Below, in pieces: positions 3,003-8,845 of a stretch of 57,600 nt of DNA (position 1 is its first letter; each line of letters opens with the position of its first letter). The stretch is from positions 11,982-69,581 of the forward strand of contig JAHDVX010000018.1 in assembly GCA_023382455.1 (NCBI GenBank), given 5' to 3'. A program made the translations under genes and the position numbers. Under the pieces are notes generated by a model. The model saw nothing but the letters and a program-made list of their open reading frames with translations. It was not told the DNA's origin and did no database searches. This DNA comes from Flavobacteriales bacterium (GTDB taxonomy: Bacteria > Bacteroidota > Bacteroidia > Flavobacteriales_F > PHOS-HE28).

Positions 3003-3656
3003 TCACCCGCCGCTTCCCATGGGGTCCATCACCTGCCTGAGGACCTGTCGGTCCAGGGCATGGTCGCCGGGGAAGCGGACCGTACGATGCGCCACGCCCG
3101 CATCCCTGAGCCGCGCCGAGGCCTGCGACAACACTTCCGCACCCACGATCTTGTCCTGCTCGCCATGCACCAGCGTTACGTGCAGTGTGCGCCAGTGGTC
3201 GTGCAACCGGGATGGCTCCAACTCCGGGGGCATCGACCCCGCCCAAAGCACCAGGCCTTTGATGGGCACTGTGGTCGTGGCCGCCCAGCGGCAGGCCGTG
3301 GCCACCCCTTGCGAGAAGCCCAGCACGTGCAAGGGCGCGCCCGCCGGGCATTGCGCCAAGAGCTTTTCCGCAAGGGCATTCAAGTACGTGCCCTGGTCGG
3401 CGATCTCCGCCTCGCGGTCCTCGCGCGTCATCCAAGTGGCGCCCACGCGGGAGTGGGCCTCATCGGTGTAGAAGCGGGAGAGGGCTTCGGGCGCGGCGAT
3501 CAACCGGCCCTGCTCCAAGCCCTCGAAGGGCCGCAGGAAGTAGCGGGCCAGCTGCCCATAGCCGTGCAGCACCAGCCACAATTCACCGGAGGTCGCGGCC
3601 TCCCCCAGCGTGTGGTAGCGGGCCGTGCGCGGTACGGTGATGTGGTGCTCTTCCAC
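3003..3656 (-). CDS. Alpha/beta hydrolase, phospholipase/carboxylesterase family
   Basis: A 217-residue serine hydrolase of the Abhydrolase_2 type. The nucleophile elbow GFSQG places Ser115, with Asp168 (GEQDK) and His199 (GDHA) completing the triad; the oxyanion region is LVLHGYG near residue 30. It should hydrolyse small carboxylic esters in the cytoplasm. I place the start at the GTG at 3656 because the amino-acid sequence from there (VEEHHITVPRTARY) is the part duplicated at 4255-4324, and because it matches the usual start of the family. An in-frame ATG at 3701 would add 15 residues of unlikely composition. The sequence upstream of the GTG belongs to an inserted DUF4160/DUF2442 segment. 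Confidence 0.85.
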   Translation of the reverse strand: MEEHHITVPRTARYHTLGEAATSGELWLVLHGYGQLARYFLRPFEGLEQGRLIAAPEALSRFYTDEAHSRVGATWMTREDREAEIADQGTYLNALAEKLLAQCPAGAPLHVLGFSQGVATACRWAATTTVPIKGLVLWAGSMPPELEPSRLHDHWRTLHVTLVHGEQDKIVGAEVLSQASARLRDAGVAHRTVRFPGDHALDRQVLRQVMDPMGSGG

Positions 3657-3659
3657 GGA
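3591..3659 (-). repeat. Direct repeat copy A (functional esterase 5' end)
   Basis: This 67-70 bp stretch, from the esterase GTG through about codon 23, recurs at 4255-4324 in the same orientation with 10 differences over 67 aligned bases (85% identity). The two copies bracket the DUF4160/DUF2442 pair. Confidence 0.85.
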
Positions 3660-3693
3660 GGGGTATTGGGAATTGCTCCTACAGGTAAGCCGT

Positions 3694-3951
3694 TCACGCA
3701 CCGGCAGATAACGTGGTGGACTTCAGGAAGAGGGTGTCCGGACACAAGTCCAGGCCGTTGTCCCAAACCACGGTGCCCAAAGCAGGTTTTGCCGTGCGGA
3801 ACAGGGCTTCATCCTGTAGTTCATGGAAGGCTCCCATGCCCAAGTACGGATGCATGTCAAAGCGCTTCACCTCTCCATTGGAAAAGGTCAACAACAGTTG
3901 GTACCCTGGTTCGGGGGCCACGGAAACGACACGTGGATTCAGTTCCTTCAT
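3694..3951 (-). CDS. DUF2442 domain protein
   Basis: An 85-residue protein starting MKELNPRVVSV with the DUF2442 pattern (YQLLLTFSNGEVKRFD, later DNGLDLCPDTLF). DUF2442 proteins are small, and are often encoded next to DUF4160 proteins in pairs that look like toxin-antitoxin modules; the biochemical role is not established. Its ATG overlaps the stop of the upstream DUF4160 frame (ATGA), so the two are translationally coupled. Base composition is less G+C-rich than the neighbours, which suggests acquisition. The start at 3951 rather than further upstream is set by this overlap and by the family N-terminus. Confidence 0.8.
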   Translation of the reverse strand: MKELNPRVVSVAPEPGYQLLLTFSNGEVKRFDMHPYLGMGAFHELQDEALFRTAKPALGTVVWDNGLDLCPDTLFLKSTTLSAGA

Positions 3952-4215
3952 TTGAGCGGTTCTATGCTGAACACCCGCTGGCCGCTGATGGCCAGTTGCC
4001 AATTGGCCATGAGCTCATCCTGGTGCAGTTCAATCCATGCATCAACCAATTTACGCTTTCCGCGAGGAAGTTCACCGCCAAGCACCGCCCCATCAGGGAT
4101 CCGAATCCGCTTCATGTTCGTTGTAGCGGACATGGATGTGCGGGAAATGGTGCTGGCTGGTATCCAAATAGTACATGGCCACGATAAGCCCATAGAACAT
4201 GGATATCACCGGCAT
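3948..4215 (-). pseudogene. DUF4160 protein gene, split by a frameshift
   Basis: Two overlapping reading frames together make one DUF4160 protein. The first (4215 to stop at 4093) reads MPVISMFYGLIVAMYY, then HHFPHIHVRYNEHEA, which is the conserved N-terminal half. The second, entered by an ATG at 4115, reads IPDGAVLGGELP through HQDELMANWQLA to SIEPLK, the C-terminal half. The expected join is near 4100-4112, where one frame must be left for the other. The gene is therefore broken, or translated as two pieces by restart at the internal ATG. The 3' end overlaps DUF2442 by ATGA. Family function is unknown; a toxin-antitoxin-like role is only an inference from its pairing with DUF2442. Confidence 0.78.
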
Positions 4216-4254
4216 GGCGTACAAATCAGTGGTGCCAAGGTACCATCATTATAC

Positions 4255-4324
4255 GGTCGCGGCCACGCCCAGCGTGTAATTGCGGGCCGTGTGCGGTACG
4301 GTGATATGGCGTTCCTCCACGACG
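4255..4324 (-). pseudogene. Direct repeat copy B: orphan 5' end of the esterase
   Basis: Read on the minus strand from a GTG at 4317 this encodes VEERHITVPHTARNYTLG and then runs into stop codons at about 4248. It matches the first 23 codons of the esterase at 3003-3656. It begins only 11 bases after the stop codon of the dehydrogenase gene, the place where the intact esterase would be expected to start. It is a duplicated, inactive gene start. Confidence 0.8.
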
Positions 4325-4327
4325 TGC

Positions 4328-6424
4328 TCAATAGGCGAGCAGTTCGCCGAGCACGGCACCCACCTTCTCCGCGTTGGGGATCATGGTGGCTTCCAAGGTG
4401 CTGTTCAGCGGGATGGCGGGCATGTCCACCGAGCCGATGAAGCGCACCGGCGCGTCCAGCTTGTCGAAGCAGGCATTGGCGATCTGCCCGGCCAGCGCCT
4501 GGGCGAAGGAATTGGAGATGGTCTCCTCCGTGACCACCAAGCAACGGCCATGGCCGCGCACGGCCTCCATCACGGCCTCTTCATCCCAAGGCACCAGCGT
4601 GCGCAGGTCGATGATGGTGACCCGGCCGGGGAACTGCTTCGCGGCGGTCTTGGCCCAGTACACGCCCATGCCGTAGGTAACGACCACCGCGGCCTCGCCC
4701 TTGGCCACCTGCGCGGCATCCGCCTGCAGCACCGTGCGCGCCTTGCCGAAGGGGATGATGTAATCGGCGGAGGGTTCGATGCTGCGCGCCTCCTCCGTGC
4801 CGGGCAGCTTGCTCCAGTAGAGGCCCTTGTGCTCCAGCATCACCACGGGGTTGGGGTCGTGGTAGGCGGCCTTCATCAGGCCCTTCAGGTCGGCGCCGGT
4901 GCTGGGGTAGGCCACCTTGATGCCCTTGATGTTGCACACCACGCTTTCCACGCTGCTGCTGTGGTAGGGCCCGCCAGCGCCGTAGGCGCCGGTGGGCACG
5001 CGCAGCACCATGCTCACCGGCCATTTGCCGTTGCTGAGGTAATTGCTGCGCGCCACTTCGGTGAAGAGCTGGTTCAGGCCCGGCCAGATGTAATCGGCGA
5101 ACTGCACCTCCACGAAGGGCTTCAGTCCTGCAGCGCTCATGCCCACGGTGCTACCCACGATGAAGGCCTCCTGGATCGGCGTGTTGAACACGCGGTCGGG
5201 GCCGAAATCGCGGCCCAGGGTGGCGGCCTCGCGGAAAACGCCGCCGAGGCGCGCGCCCACGTCCTGCCCGTAGAGCAGGCAGCGCGGATCCTCCTGCATC
5301 AGCTCGCGGATGGCGAAGAGGGCGCAGTCCACCATCAGGGTGGGCTGCTTGTCCGCCGGGGCGCGCTCGCCCTTTTCCTCCGTTACCGGCGTGGGGGCGA
5401 AGGCGTGGGTGTACAGGTCTTCCGGCCGGGGATCTTCCGCCTGGCGGGCTTCCTCGAAATCGGCCTTCACCAAGGCGATGGCCTTTTTCTCCAGTTCCTT
5501 CAGTCCTTGGTGCTGGATGCCCAGGTCCAGCAGTTGCTGGAAGAAGCGCGGTTGCGGGTCGCGCTTGCGGTGCTCGGCCAGGTCGGCCTCGCTGCGGTAG
5601 AAATCCATCCGCACGCCGCTGGTGTGGTGGTTGAGCAGCGGCACTTTGGCATGCACCAGGAAGGGTCGGCGCTCCTTGCGCACGGTGGCGATCACCGCCT
5701 CCAGCAAGGTGTAGCAGGCGGGGAAGTCCGTGCCGTCCACCTGGCGCATCTCCAGCCCCTTGAAGCCGCGGGCGAAGTGTGCCGCATCGTTGGCCCGTAT
5801 CTCCTGGGCCGTGGCGCTGATGTCCCATTCGTTGTCCTGCACCAGGTAGATGATGGGCAGCTGCTTGAGCGCGGCCATGTGGAGCGCCTCGGCCACCTCG
5901 CCCTCGGTCATGGCGGCATCACCGATGGAGCAGACCACCACGGGCGCATCCGGCCCGGCGGTTTCCATGCCGGTGCGTTCCTTGTACTGCACGCCCATGG
6001 CCAGGCCCGTGGTGGGGATGGCCTGCATGCCGGTGGCGCTGCTCTGGTGCGGGATCTTGGGCATGCCCTCGCGCCGCAGGCTGGGGTGGCTGTAGTAGGA
6101 GCGCCCGCCGCTGAAGGGATCGTCGCGCTTGGCCATCAGCTGCAGCATCAGTTCGTAGGGCCGCATGCCGATGCCCAGCAGGATGCTGTCGTCGCGGTAG
6201 TAGGGCGCCACCCAGTCCTGTGGCTTCAGTTGCAGGCCCAGCGCCAGTTGGATGGCCTCATGGCCGCGGCTGGTGGCGTGCACGTATTTGCTGGTGAACT
6301 TGAAGTGCTCCTCGTAGATGTCCGTCATCGCCTTGGCGGTGCACATCAGTTCCCATGCTTTCAGCAGGGTGGCTTGGCCGAGGTTCGGTTGCGGGTTCTT
6401 GGTCCGTGTGGAAGTGATGGGCAT
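4328..6424 (-). CDS. Fused alpha/beta E1 of a 2-oxoacid dehydrogenase complex
   Basis: A 698-residue thiamine-diphosphate enzyme in which the E1-alpha part (about 1-340) and the transketolase-like E1-beta part (about 370-698) are joined. The ThDP/Mg motif is GDAAMTEGE near 168 with Asn198 30 residues on. The beta half holds LLYGQDVG, NTPIQEAFIVG and VPTGAYGAGGPYHSSS. The fused arrangement is widespread in Bacteroidota, where the protein is annotated as branched-chain (2-oxoisovalerate) or general alpha-keto acid dehydrogenase E1. It decarboxylates the 2-oxoacid and passes the acyl group to a lipoyl E2; no E2 or E3 gene is in the window. The exact substrate cannot be read from sequence alone. 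It is transcribed towards the insertion at 4255. Confidence 0.9.
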   Translation of the reverse strand: MPITSTRTKNPQPNLGQATLLKAWELMCTAKAMTDIYEEHFKFTSKYVHATSRGHEAIQLALGLQLKPQDWVAPYYRDDSILLGIGMRPYELMLQLMAKRDDPFSGGRSYYSHPSLRREGMPKIPHQSSATGMQAIPTTGLAMGVQYKERTGMETAGPDAPVVVCSIGDAAMTEGEVAEALHMAALKQLPIIYLVQDNEWDISATAQEIRANDAAHFARGFKGLEMRQVDGTDFPACYTLLEAVIATVRKERRPFLVHAKVPLLNHHTSGVRMDFYRSEADLAEHRKRDPQPRFFQQLLDLGIQHQGLKELEKKAIALVKADFEEARQAEDPRPEDLYTHAFAPTPVTEEKGERAPADKQPTLMVDCALFAIRELMQEDPRCLLYGQDVGARLGGVFREAATLGRDFGPDRVFNTPIQEAFIVGSTVGMSAAGLKPFVEVQFADYIWPGLNQLFTEVARSNYLSNGKWPVSMVLRVPTGAYGAGGPYHSSSVESVVCNIKGIKVAYPSTGADLKGLMKAAYHDPNPVVMLEHKGLYWSKLPGTEEARSIEPSADYIIPFGKARTVLQADAAQVAKGEAAVVVTYGMGVYWAKTAAKQFPGRVTIIDLRTLVPWDEEAVMEAVRGHGRCLVVTEETISNSFAQALAGQIANACFDKLDAPVRFIGSVDMPAIPLNSTLEATMIPNAEKVGAVLGELLAY

Positions 6425-8620: not shown

Positions 8621-8662
8621 GTGCTTGATCGATCTCAAGTTGCTCCCTTCCGCCTCCGCCCA

Positions 8663-8845
8663 CCCATCCTGTTCATCCCGTTCATCCTGTCAAAGAAAAC
8701 TGATACTACCGCCCATCCTGTTCATCCTGCCCATCCTGTCAAAGAAAGCTGATACTACCGCCCATCCTGTTCATCCTGCCCATCCTGTCAAAGAAAGCTG
8801 ATGCTTTCATCCATCCTGTTCATCCCGTTCATCCTGTCTAAAGCT
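8663..8845 (+). repeat. Nested tandem repeat: about 3.7 units of 49 bp
   Basis: Units begin at 8663, 8712, 8761 and 8810, each 49 bases. A unit holds three copies of a 9-base subrepeat of the form CATCCTGTT, then a spacer TCAAAGAAAGCTGATACTACCG that is well kept in the first two units and decays in the third and fourth. It lies directly upstream of the GxxExxY gene, in what would be its promoter and leader. Short in-frame reads across it (HPVHPAHPV) are an effect of the 9-base period. The stretch 8621-8922 holds no other gene. Confidence 0.92.

Follow-up and report, generated by a model that had tools for sequence, protein, structure and literature searches.

A DhiTA toxin–antitoxin cassette at a duplicated esterase start is one case of small-cassette gain at the ends of conserved genes in a Flavobacteriales genus

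The window analysed here is a stretch of 57,600 nt from a Flavobacteriales genome of 3.43 Mb in 51 contigs (G000), which was compared within a genus sample of 45 genomes, mostly draft assemblies; a search at the level of the order yielded the same 45. On the minus strand of the window, a dehydrogenase E1 gene that holds the alpha and beta parts as one gene (4328–6424; PF00676, PF02779 and PF02780) is followed by a second copy of an esterase start (4255–4321), a DUF4160 gene (3948–4215, with the ATG at 4215; PF13711), a DUF2442 gene (3694–3951; PF10387, 44.6 bits) and an esterase of the carboxylesterase type (3003–3656, with a GTG start; Abhydrolase_2, PF02230, 35.5 bits). A self-BLAST search places a direct repeat at 3591–3657 and 4255–4321, in the same orientation and with 57 of 67 bases identical (85 %, E 5e-16), which bears out the claim of a first-pass annotation that the esterase start is present twice in one direction. 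The copy at 3591–3657 covers esterase codons 1–22, aligns with the esterase starts of relatives and opens the intact gene. The copy at 4255–4321 is a dead stub, as had been proposed; its reading frame spans 22 codons within the repeat and stops one codon further on, thus meeting stop codons after 23 codons. Seven bases separate the dehydrogenase stop (4330–4328) from the GTG of the stub (4320), where 11 had been counted. The insert between the copies (3658–4254, 597 bp) has a G+C content of 53.8 %, compared with 68.7 % in the esterase and 66.3 % in the dehydrogenase, and within it the DUF4160 and DUF2442 genes overlap by ATGA, both features agreeing with the earlier description. Likewise, the reported lack of an integrase holds: Pfam matches on the reading frames of the insert were to DUF4160 and DUF2442 only, and no recombinase, transposase or integrase was among them.

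The DUF4160/DUF2442 pair is the known DhiTA toxin–antitoxin (TA) module. In Dickeya dadantii, cells that overproduce the product of the first gene are inhibited in growth, whereas those that overproduce both products are not; the operon regulates its own expression (PMC8198452). In Thermus, the pair raises plasmid persistence, and a plasmid without the second gene gave zero transformants (PMC12724237). The gene order in the window, DUF4160 then DUF2442 with a short overlap, is that of the Dickeya operon (PMC8198452), with the difference that the toxin gene of the window is frameshifted. PF13711 is matched there in two frames, by profile positions 1–27 and 28–65, so that either the DhiT-type toxin is broken or the assembly contains an indel at that point. 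The DhiA-type antitoxin gene is intact. As the toxin frame is not intact, the window pair is referred to as a decayed DhiTA member, assembly error being possible.

Homologs of the esterase were found in 40 of the 45 genus genomes, and the gene directly upstream of it in relatives is the dehydrogenase E1. The dehydrogenase–esterase region was compared in these 40 genomes; one is G000 itself and another (G003) has a contig without the dehydrogenase end, which leaves 38 relatives with both genes readable. In 31 of the 38, the esterase lies at most 16 bases from the dehydrogenase stop. A second esterase start was detected in none of the 38 (tblastn, E ≤ 1e-3), only in G000. This empty site in relatives shows that an insertion has taken place at the esterase start. 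The comparison had been suggested in the first-pass annotation, which expected the esterase of relatives without the pair to adjoin the dehydrogenase, as it does in those 31, and to have a single start copy, in agreement with the 38, in none of which a second one was detected; the opposite outcome, both copies in relatives without the pair, was thus not observed.

The seven exceptions (G034, G018, G019, G033, G020, G042 and G017) carry other inserts at the same junction, which is an insertion hotspot. The G018 insert (L032:1072-2876) consists of genes for a C5-cytosine methylase and a restriction enzyme of the Eco29kI family; after them comes a lone DUF2442 gene that occupies the same place as that of the window, directly upstream of the esterase. 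Among the loci compared, the product of this gene is also the closest relative of the window DhiA (76 % identical, the next best being 56 %), as exchange at the same locus would give. The G033 junction holds a seemingly degraded version of the G018 insert together with an Mrr-type nuclease. In G033 (L035:7832-7864) the first 10–11 codons of a DUF2442-like protein are fused directly onto the esterase frame and are likely a remnant of the antitoxin gene. In G042 (L037:4168-5483), a small gene without a Pfam match lies between two copies of a 346-bp dehydrogenase tail (88 % identity), the stub of which is still a conserved reading frame. The junction inserts of the remaining exceptions are small genes without certain names.

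The ancestry of the two window copies was examined by taking G034, the nearest relative, as the outgroup. They diverged from each other later than G034 branched off, and since then the functional copy has gained 2 changes and the stub 8. Their identity of 85 %, well short of complete, might be taken to mean that the stub is left over from another esterase paralog instead of being a duplicate, an explanation that is scarcely credible: nearly all genomes with any esterase match have a single one, G000 itself has one esterase plus the stub, the best match of the stub among the loci of the 40 genomes is the adjoining esterase, and the outgroup distances point the same way. An origin of the copies from different paralogs would have counted against the interpretation of the first-pass annotation; no such origin is found, the split of the copies postdating G034.

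Flanking direct repeats were then sought around other TA loci (blastn on both sides, E ≤ 1e-6, period ≤ 1600, flank up to 1.5 kb). Long direct repeats flank 20 of 43 genus loci with DUF4160 and/or DUF2442 (44 loci, one set aside for a short flank), in reply to the suggestion that such loci be searched for duplications of a neighbouring gene. Random 450-bp features were flanked in 2 of 600 cases within 342 kb of genus DNA drawn from 32 sources, and the window locus is itself one of these two cases; on one G024 contig, 23 of 1500 random features were flanked. A chance origin of the window repeat is excluded by the 2 in 600 among random features. ParE-type loci, which are unrelated to DhiTA, were sampled as the best-scoring locus of each of 30 genus genomes, again with one set aside for a short flank, and 16 of 29 are flanked. 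Counted as separate host sites, 15 of 23 for DhiTA and 9 of 17 for ParE have at least one flanked member, the clustering having taken all 30 ParE loci. In the rest of the phylum, 4 of 28 DhiTA and 9 of 30 ParE loci are flanked, or 2 of 28 and 6 of 30 when repeats of at least 45 bp are considered; the random controls come from genus DNA, and the DhiTA count leaves out L307, a locus with a short flank that was flanked in an earlier scoring. The lower counts in the phylum indicate that the habit is stronger in the genus, though shared outside it. A partial tandem duplication of the esterase region, with the space between the copies filled or deleted by unrelated later events, would likewise yield two copies in the same direction; this order of events is very improbable, in that TA cassettes are many-fold enriched between repeats and chance filling would not enrich them.

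Wherever the host was identified, it is a conserved gene with one of its ends repeated: one copy makes the gene complete, and the other remains as a stub. Duplicated starts are those of the esterase in the window, an LD-carboxypeptidase (L047) and a PHP-domain protein (L220). Duplicated tails are those of a class II tRNA synthetase, methylmalonyl-CoA mutase, 2-oxoacid dehydrogenase E2, enoyl-CoA hydratase, RNase E/G, a PcrA/UvrD-type helicase and others. The class II tRNA synthetase is read here as glyS and the PHP-domain protein as dnaE; these names, as well as pgk, fabD and rmlB, are our reading of the sequences. Most identified hosts are thus duplicated at the 3′ end, which does not fit the gene-start targeting that had been proposed. 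The duplications measure 36 to 435 bp across sites, and some copies are near-identical (L211, 60/60; L224, 98.75 %; L068, 97.4 %). The ParE modules of ten genomes lie in one host region (L201, L205, L209, L212, L214, L215, L216, L217, L223 and L230); seven of these loci have flanking repeats. Six of the seven contrast with L217, a locus with an enoyl-CoA hydratase gene, whose repeat is different.

Among the 36 flanking repeats, mutual matches occur only inside groups that share one host site, which removes a common repeat carried by the cassettes as an explanation. Terminal inverted repeats were found at p ≤ 0.05 in 2 of 36 inserts, about the number expected by chance. A DNA transposon or insertion sequence is rejected on the same count, together with the repeat length, which varies from 36 to 193 bp at the loci with DUF4160 and/or DUF2442, and the lack of a transposase or integrase in the window insert. 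A dedicated recombinase acting in trans, with gene ends as its recognition sites and long duplications as a by-product of cassette insertion, could account for the high frequency in one genus compared with the 4 of 28 and 9 of 30 elsewhere in the phylum, and for the repeated use of the same gene ends, as at glyS (below). It is nevertheless improbable: terminal inverted repeats do not exceed chance, no common motif was seen by eye in ten inserts, the repeats of different host sites are unrelated, and the duplication length varies from 36 to 435 bp.

The cargo is varied. A scan of 1.15 Mb of G024 gave 91 repeat pairs within the length and gap limits, of which 24 were picked for inspection, with hosts and cargo assigned partly by eye. 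On visual inspection, 13 of the 24 were classed as insertions in which a gene end or border is repeated, and the other 11 are paralogs, within-gene repeats, dispersed repeats or ambiguous. TA-type cargo is present in 5 of the 13 insertions, namely DhiTA, DUF433, a RelE-like protein scoring slightly below the Pfam cut-off, HepT with a nucleotidyltransferase, and ParE. One further insertion contains a CdiI_3 immunity gene, and the remainder secreted-protein-like or unnamed genes. TA modules are therefore a common cargo, with other cargo besides. Also in G024 (L287:13735-15809), three copies of the pgk gene end enclose two inserts, a ParE module and a gene of 292 aa, so insertions can stack. At the 3′ end of glyS, 5 of the 40 genomes with a true glyS match carry extra tail pieces (L408, L409, L410, L411 and L412), with different cargo, sometimes stacked, and with up to four glyS pieces. 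By-eye names for this cargo are DhiTA and a membrane-protein-like gene in G034, DUF433/DUF5615-like in G036 and peptidase-like in G029.

The ParE loci, the varied cargo and the use of gene tails mean that the pattern is neither DhiTA-specific nor start-specific. Mobility peculiar to DhiTA is ruled out, since ParE loci behaved the same. The window is one case of a genus-wide gain of small cassettes at the heads and tails of conserved genes. The suggestion that the pair forms a new kind of cassette is accordingly not supported, the pair being a known module and ParE (16 of 29) and other cargo behaving alike.

The evidence gives about even odds that the DhiTA cassette came to lie between the dehydrogenase and the esterase through recombination anchored in the esterase start. 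A short DNA fragment, comprising a gene end and neighbouring cargo, would arrive from the same or a related species and join the chromosome through one homologous exchange inside the gene end, either as a circularised fragment in a single crossover or with an illegitimate joint at the other end of the fragment. The product would be gene end, cargo, gene end, with one copy completing the gene and the other left as the stub; at the window, the recipient's own esterase start would remain as the stub. A cassette moving in this manner would not need a recombinase of its own. We infer that a crossover took place, in what form the DNA arrived, and that this route was used at the window in preference to a target duplication from a staggered cut.

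The main rival to homology-driven capture is a true long target duplication, in which the esterase start is nicked at two distant points or undergoes a replicative step, after which the cassette is captured and the gap filled. Both copies would then be born identical and only the stub would decay. The window is consistent with copies identical when formed: they split after G034, and changes in the stub outnumber those in the functional copy about fourfold (8 vs 2). The near-identical copies at L211, L224 and L068 fit as well, and there is a precedent in restriction–modification genes, for which duplications on the order of 100 bp have been described (PMC3874152). Conversely, 3 of 7 glyS stubs are distant from their own gene in ancestry, the G042 dehydrogenase copies differ mainly at third codon positions, no recombinase is among the reading frames of the window insert, inverted repeats are at chance level, and Ku was not found in G000. 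On balance, target duplication is possible but rather unlikely, and capture is somewhat likelier, because some stubs descend from lineages other than that of the adjoining gene. The earlier proposal of an insertion that left a target duplication and healed the gene thus stands as regards the insertion, the duplicated start and the intact esterase; the duplicate itself may be either a true target duplication or the gene end of a donor.

The ancestry of the stubs is mixed. For the two glyS stubs of G033 and the one of G029, the functional end of the same genome ranks 30th, 33rd and 20th of 40 as a match. The own gene end is the best match for 4 of the 7 glyS stubs (G034 twice, G031 and G036) and for the fabD stub of G024; with three pgk stubs, the rank of the own gene is first, second (in a tie) and third. 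Stubs that match their own gene best are what target duplication predicts likewise; capture allows them if donors are often close kin. Codon positions were counted in the true frame for the G042 dehydrogenase and the window, frames taken from the longest open reading frame being shadow frames in this G+C-rich DNA. In the G042 duplication, third codon positions account for 27 of 41 differences, and the two copies tend towards different relatives. The informative sites of these copies form a mosaic without a single clean switch, which counts against capture as a rule.

A stub could also look foreign through later exchange of the functional gene, so that identity at formation is contradicted by the three distant glyS stubs unless the gene was later exchanged. 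glyS does seem to recombine between species, judging from the genes of G023 and G025 (L337 and L340), in which blocks of about 80 % identity and of 95–100 % identity alternate along the gene. The functional glyS tails of the 5 stub-bearing genomes are not more divergent from relatives than those of 34 other genomes (p = 0.26), and this comparison does not support the idea that functional tails at glyS are generally imported. A copy of donor allele is thus favoured by glyS in G033 and G029 and by the G042 dehydrogenase, and not by the tail test; at the window, where the copies were near-identical at birth, a foreign donor is invisible. Ku was found in 4 of the 45 genus genomes (L458) and not in the other 41, including G000, and Ku-dependent end joining as a requirement is likewise unsupported.

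Several known systems resemble this pattern in part. Restriction–modification genes are reported to insert with long, variable target duplications of about 100 bp, and citing papers credit this to Nobusato et al. (2000) and Furuta et al. (2010) (PMC3874152, PMC3031569, PMC1643837), which also weighs against a new kind of cassette. The likeness lies in a small selfish module, a long variable host repeat and no need of a mobile element, and the window has both the long flanking host repeat and, at the empty site of relatives, the single copy. The differences are that the cargo here is TA and other small genes at gene heads and tails, that about half of the tested genus TA loci are involved, and that some copies are of mixed ancestry. 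For the effector–immunity arrays of the Vibrio cholerae type VI secretion system (T6SS), homology-facilitated illegitimate recombination has been proposed; there too a conserved stretch anchors incoming DNA, native leftovers persist and events stack, whereas effector genes are displaced and immunity genes kept (PMC5361080). In the present genus, the conserved genes remain intact, and what persists is a stub of the gene end. In E. coli, single crossovers produced lacZ-end duplications of 109–950 bp, with the gene end duplicated on either side of the inserted DNA, under plasmid-borne selection in the laboratory (PMC3240628), unlike the natural cassettes considered here.

Integrases that restore a gene end upon insertion, as SXT does at prfC and others at tRNA sites, also duplicate the gene end and leave the gene whole. 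They differ in that here many host genes are used and the window insert has no integrase.

Of the small variable segments surveyed across three bacterial species, 10–18 % were flanked by direct repeats, most of them below 30 bp (PMC2884548), and thus short flanking repeats are not unusual and long ones are. A TA review, where it cites Nobusato et al., does so only for restriction–modification systems, as having addiction and apparent mobility in common with TA (PMC2654758). No report of TA modules with long target duplications or direct repeats was found in titles and the openings of abstracts, few of them from subscription journals.

The present findings bear on how chromosomal TA modules can move in the absence of transposases or integrases. 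They extend the route of restriction–modification genes to TA modules and show how a cassette can enter at conserved genes without breakage. As about half of the tested loci, in two unrelated TA families, bear an entry scar, the donor, site and age of an insertion become measurable from sequence, and the gene-end scar offers a simple search rule for small cargo genes. More speculatively, and doubtful at present, small addiction cassettes might constitute a class of mobile DNA free of recombinases, with the ends of conserved housekeeping genes as the address and with release and re-entry as a circle. If so, the two gene-end copies would recombine to give a circle with one copy, which would enter the same gene end in another cell or species; the toxin would punish loss of the cassette, and the window, with its broken toxin, would be a dying example.

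A scan of the window as overlapping 6-kb pieces revealed no further direct repeat whose copies lie more than 100 bases apart at E ≤ 1e-7. A near-tandem 84-bp repeat (83 % identity) is present at 8660–8841, within a short reading frame rich in AHPVHPAHPV-like words.
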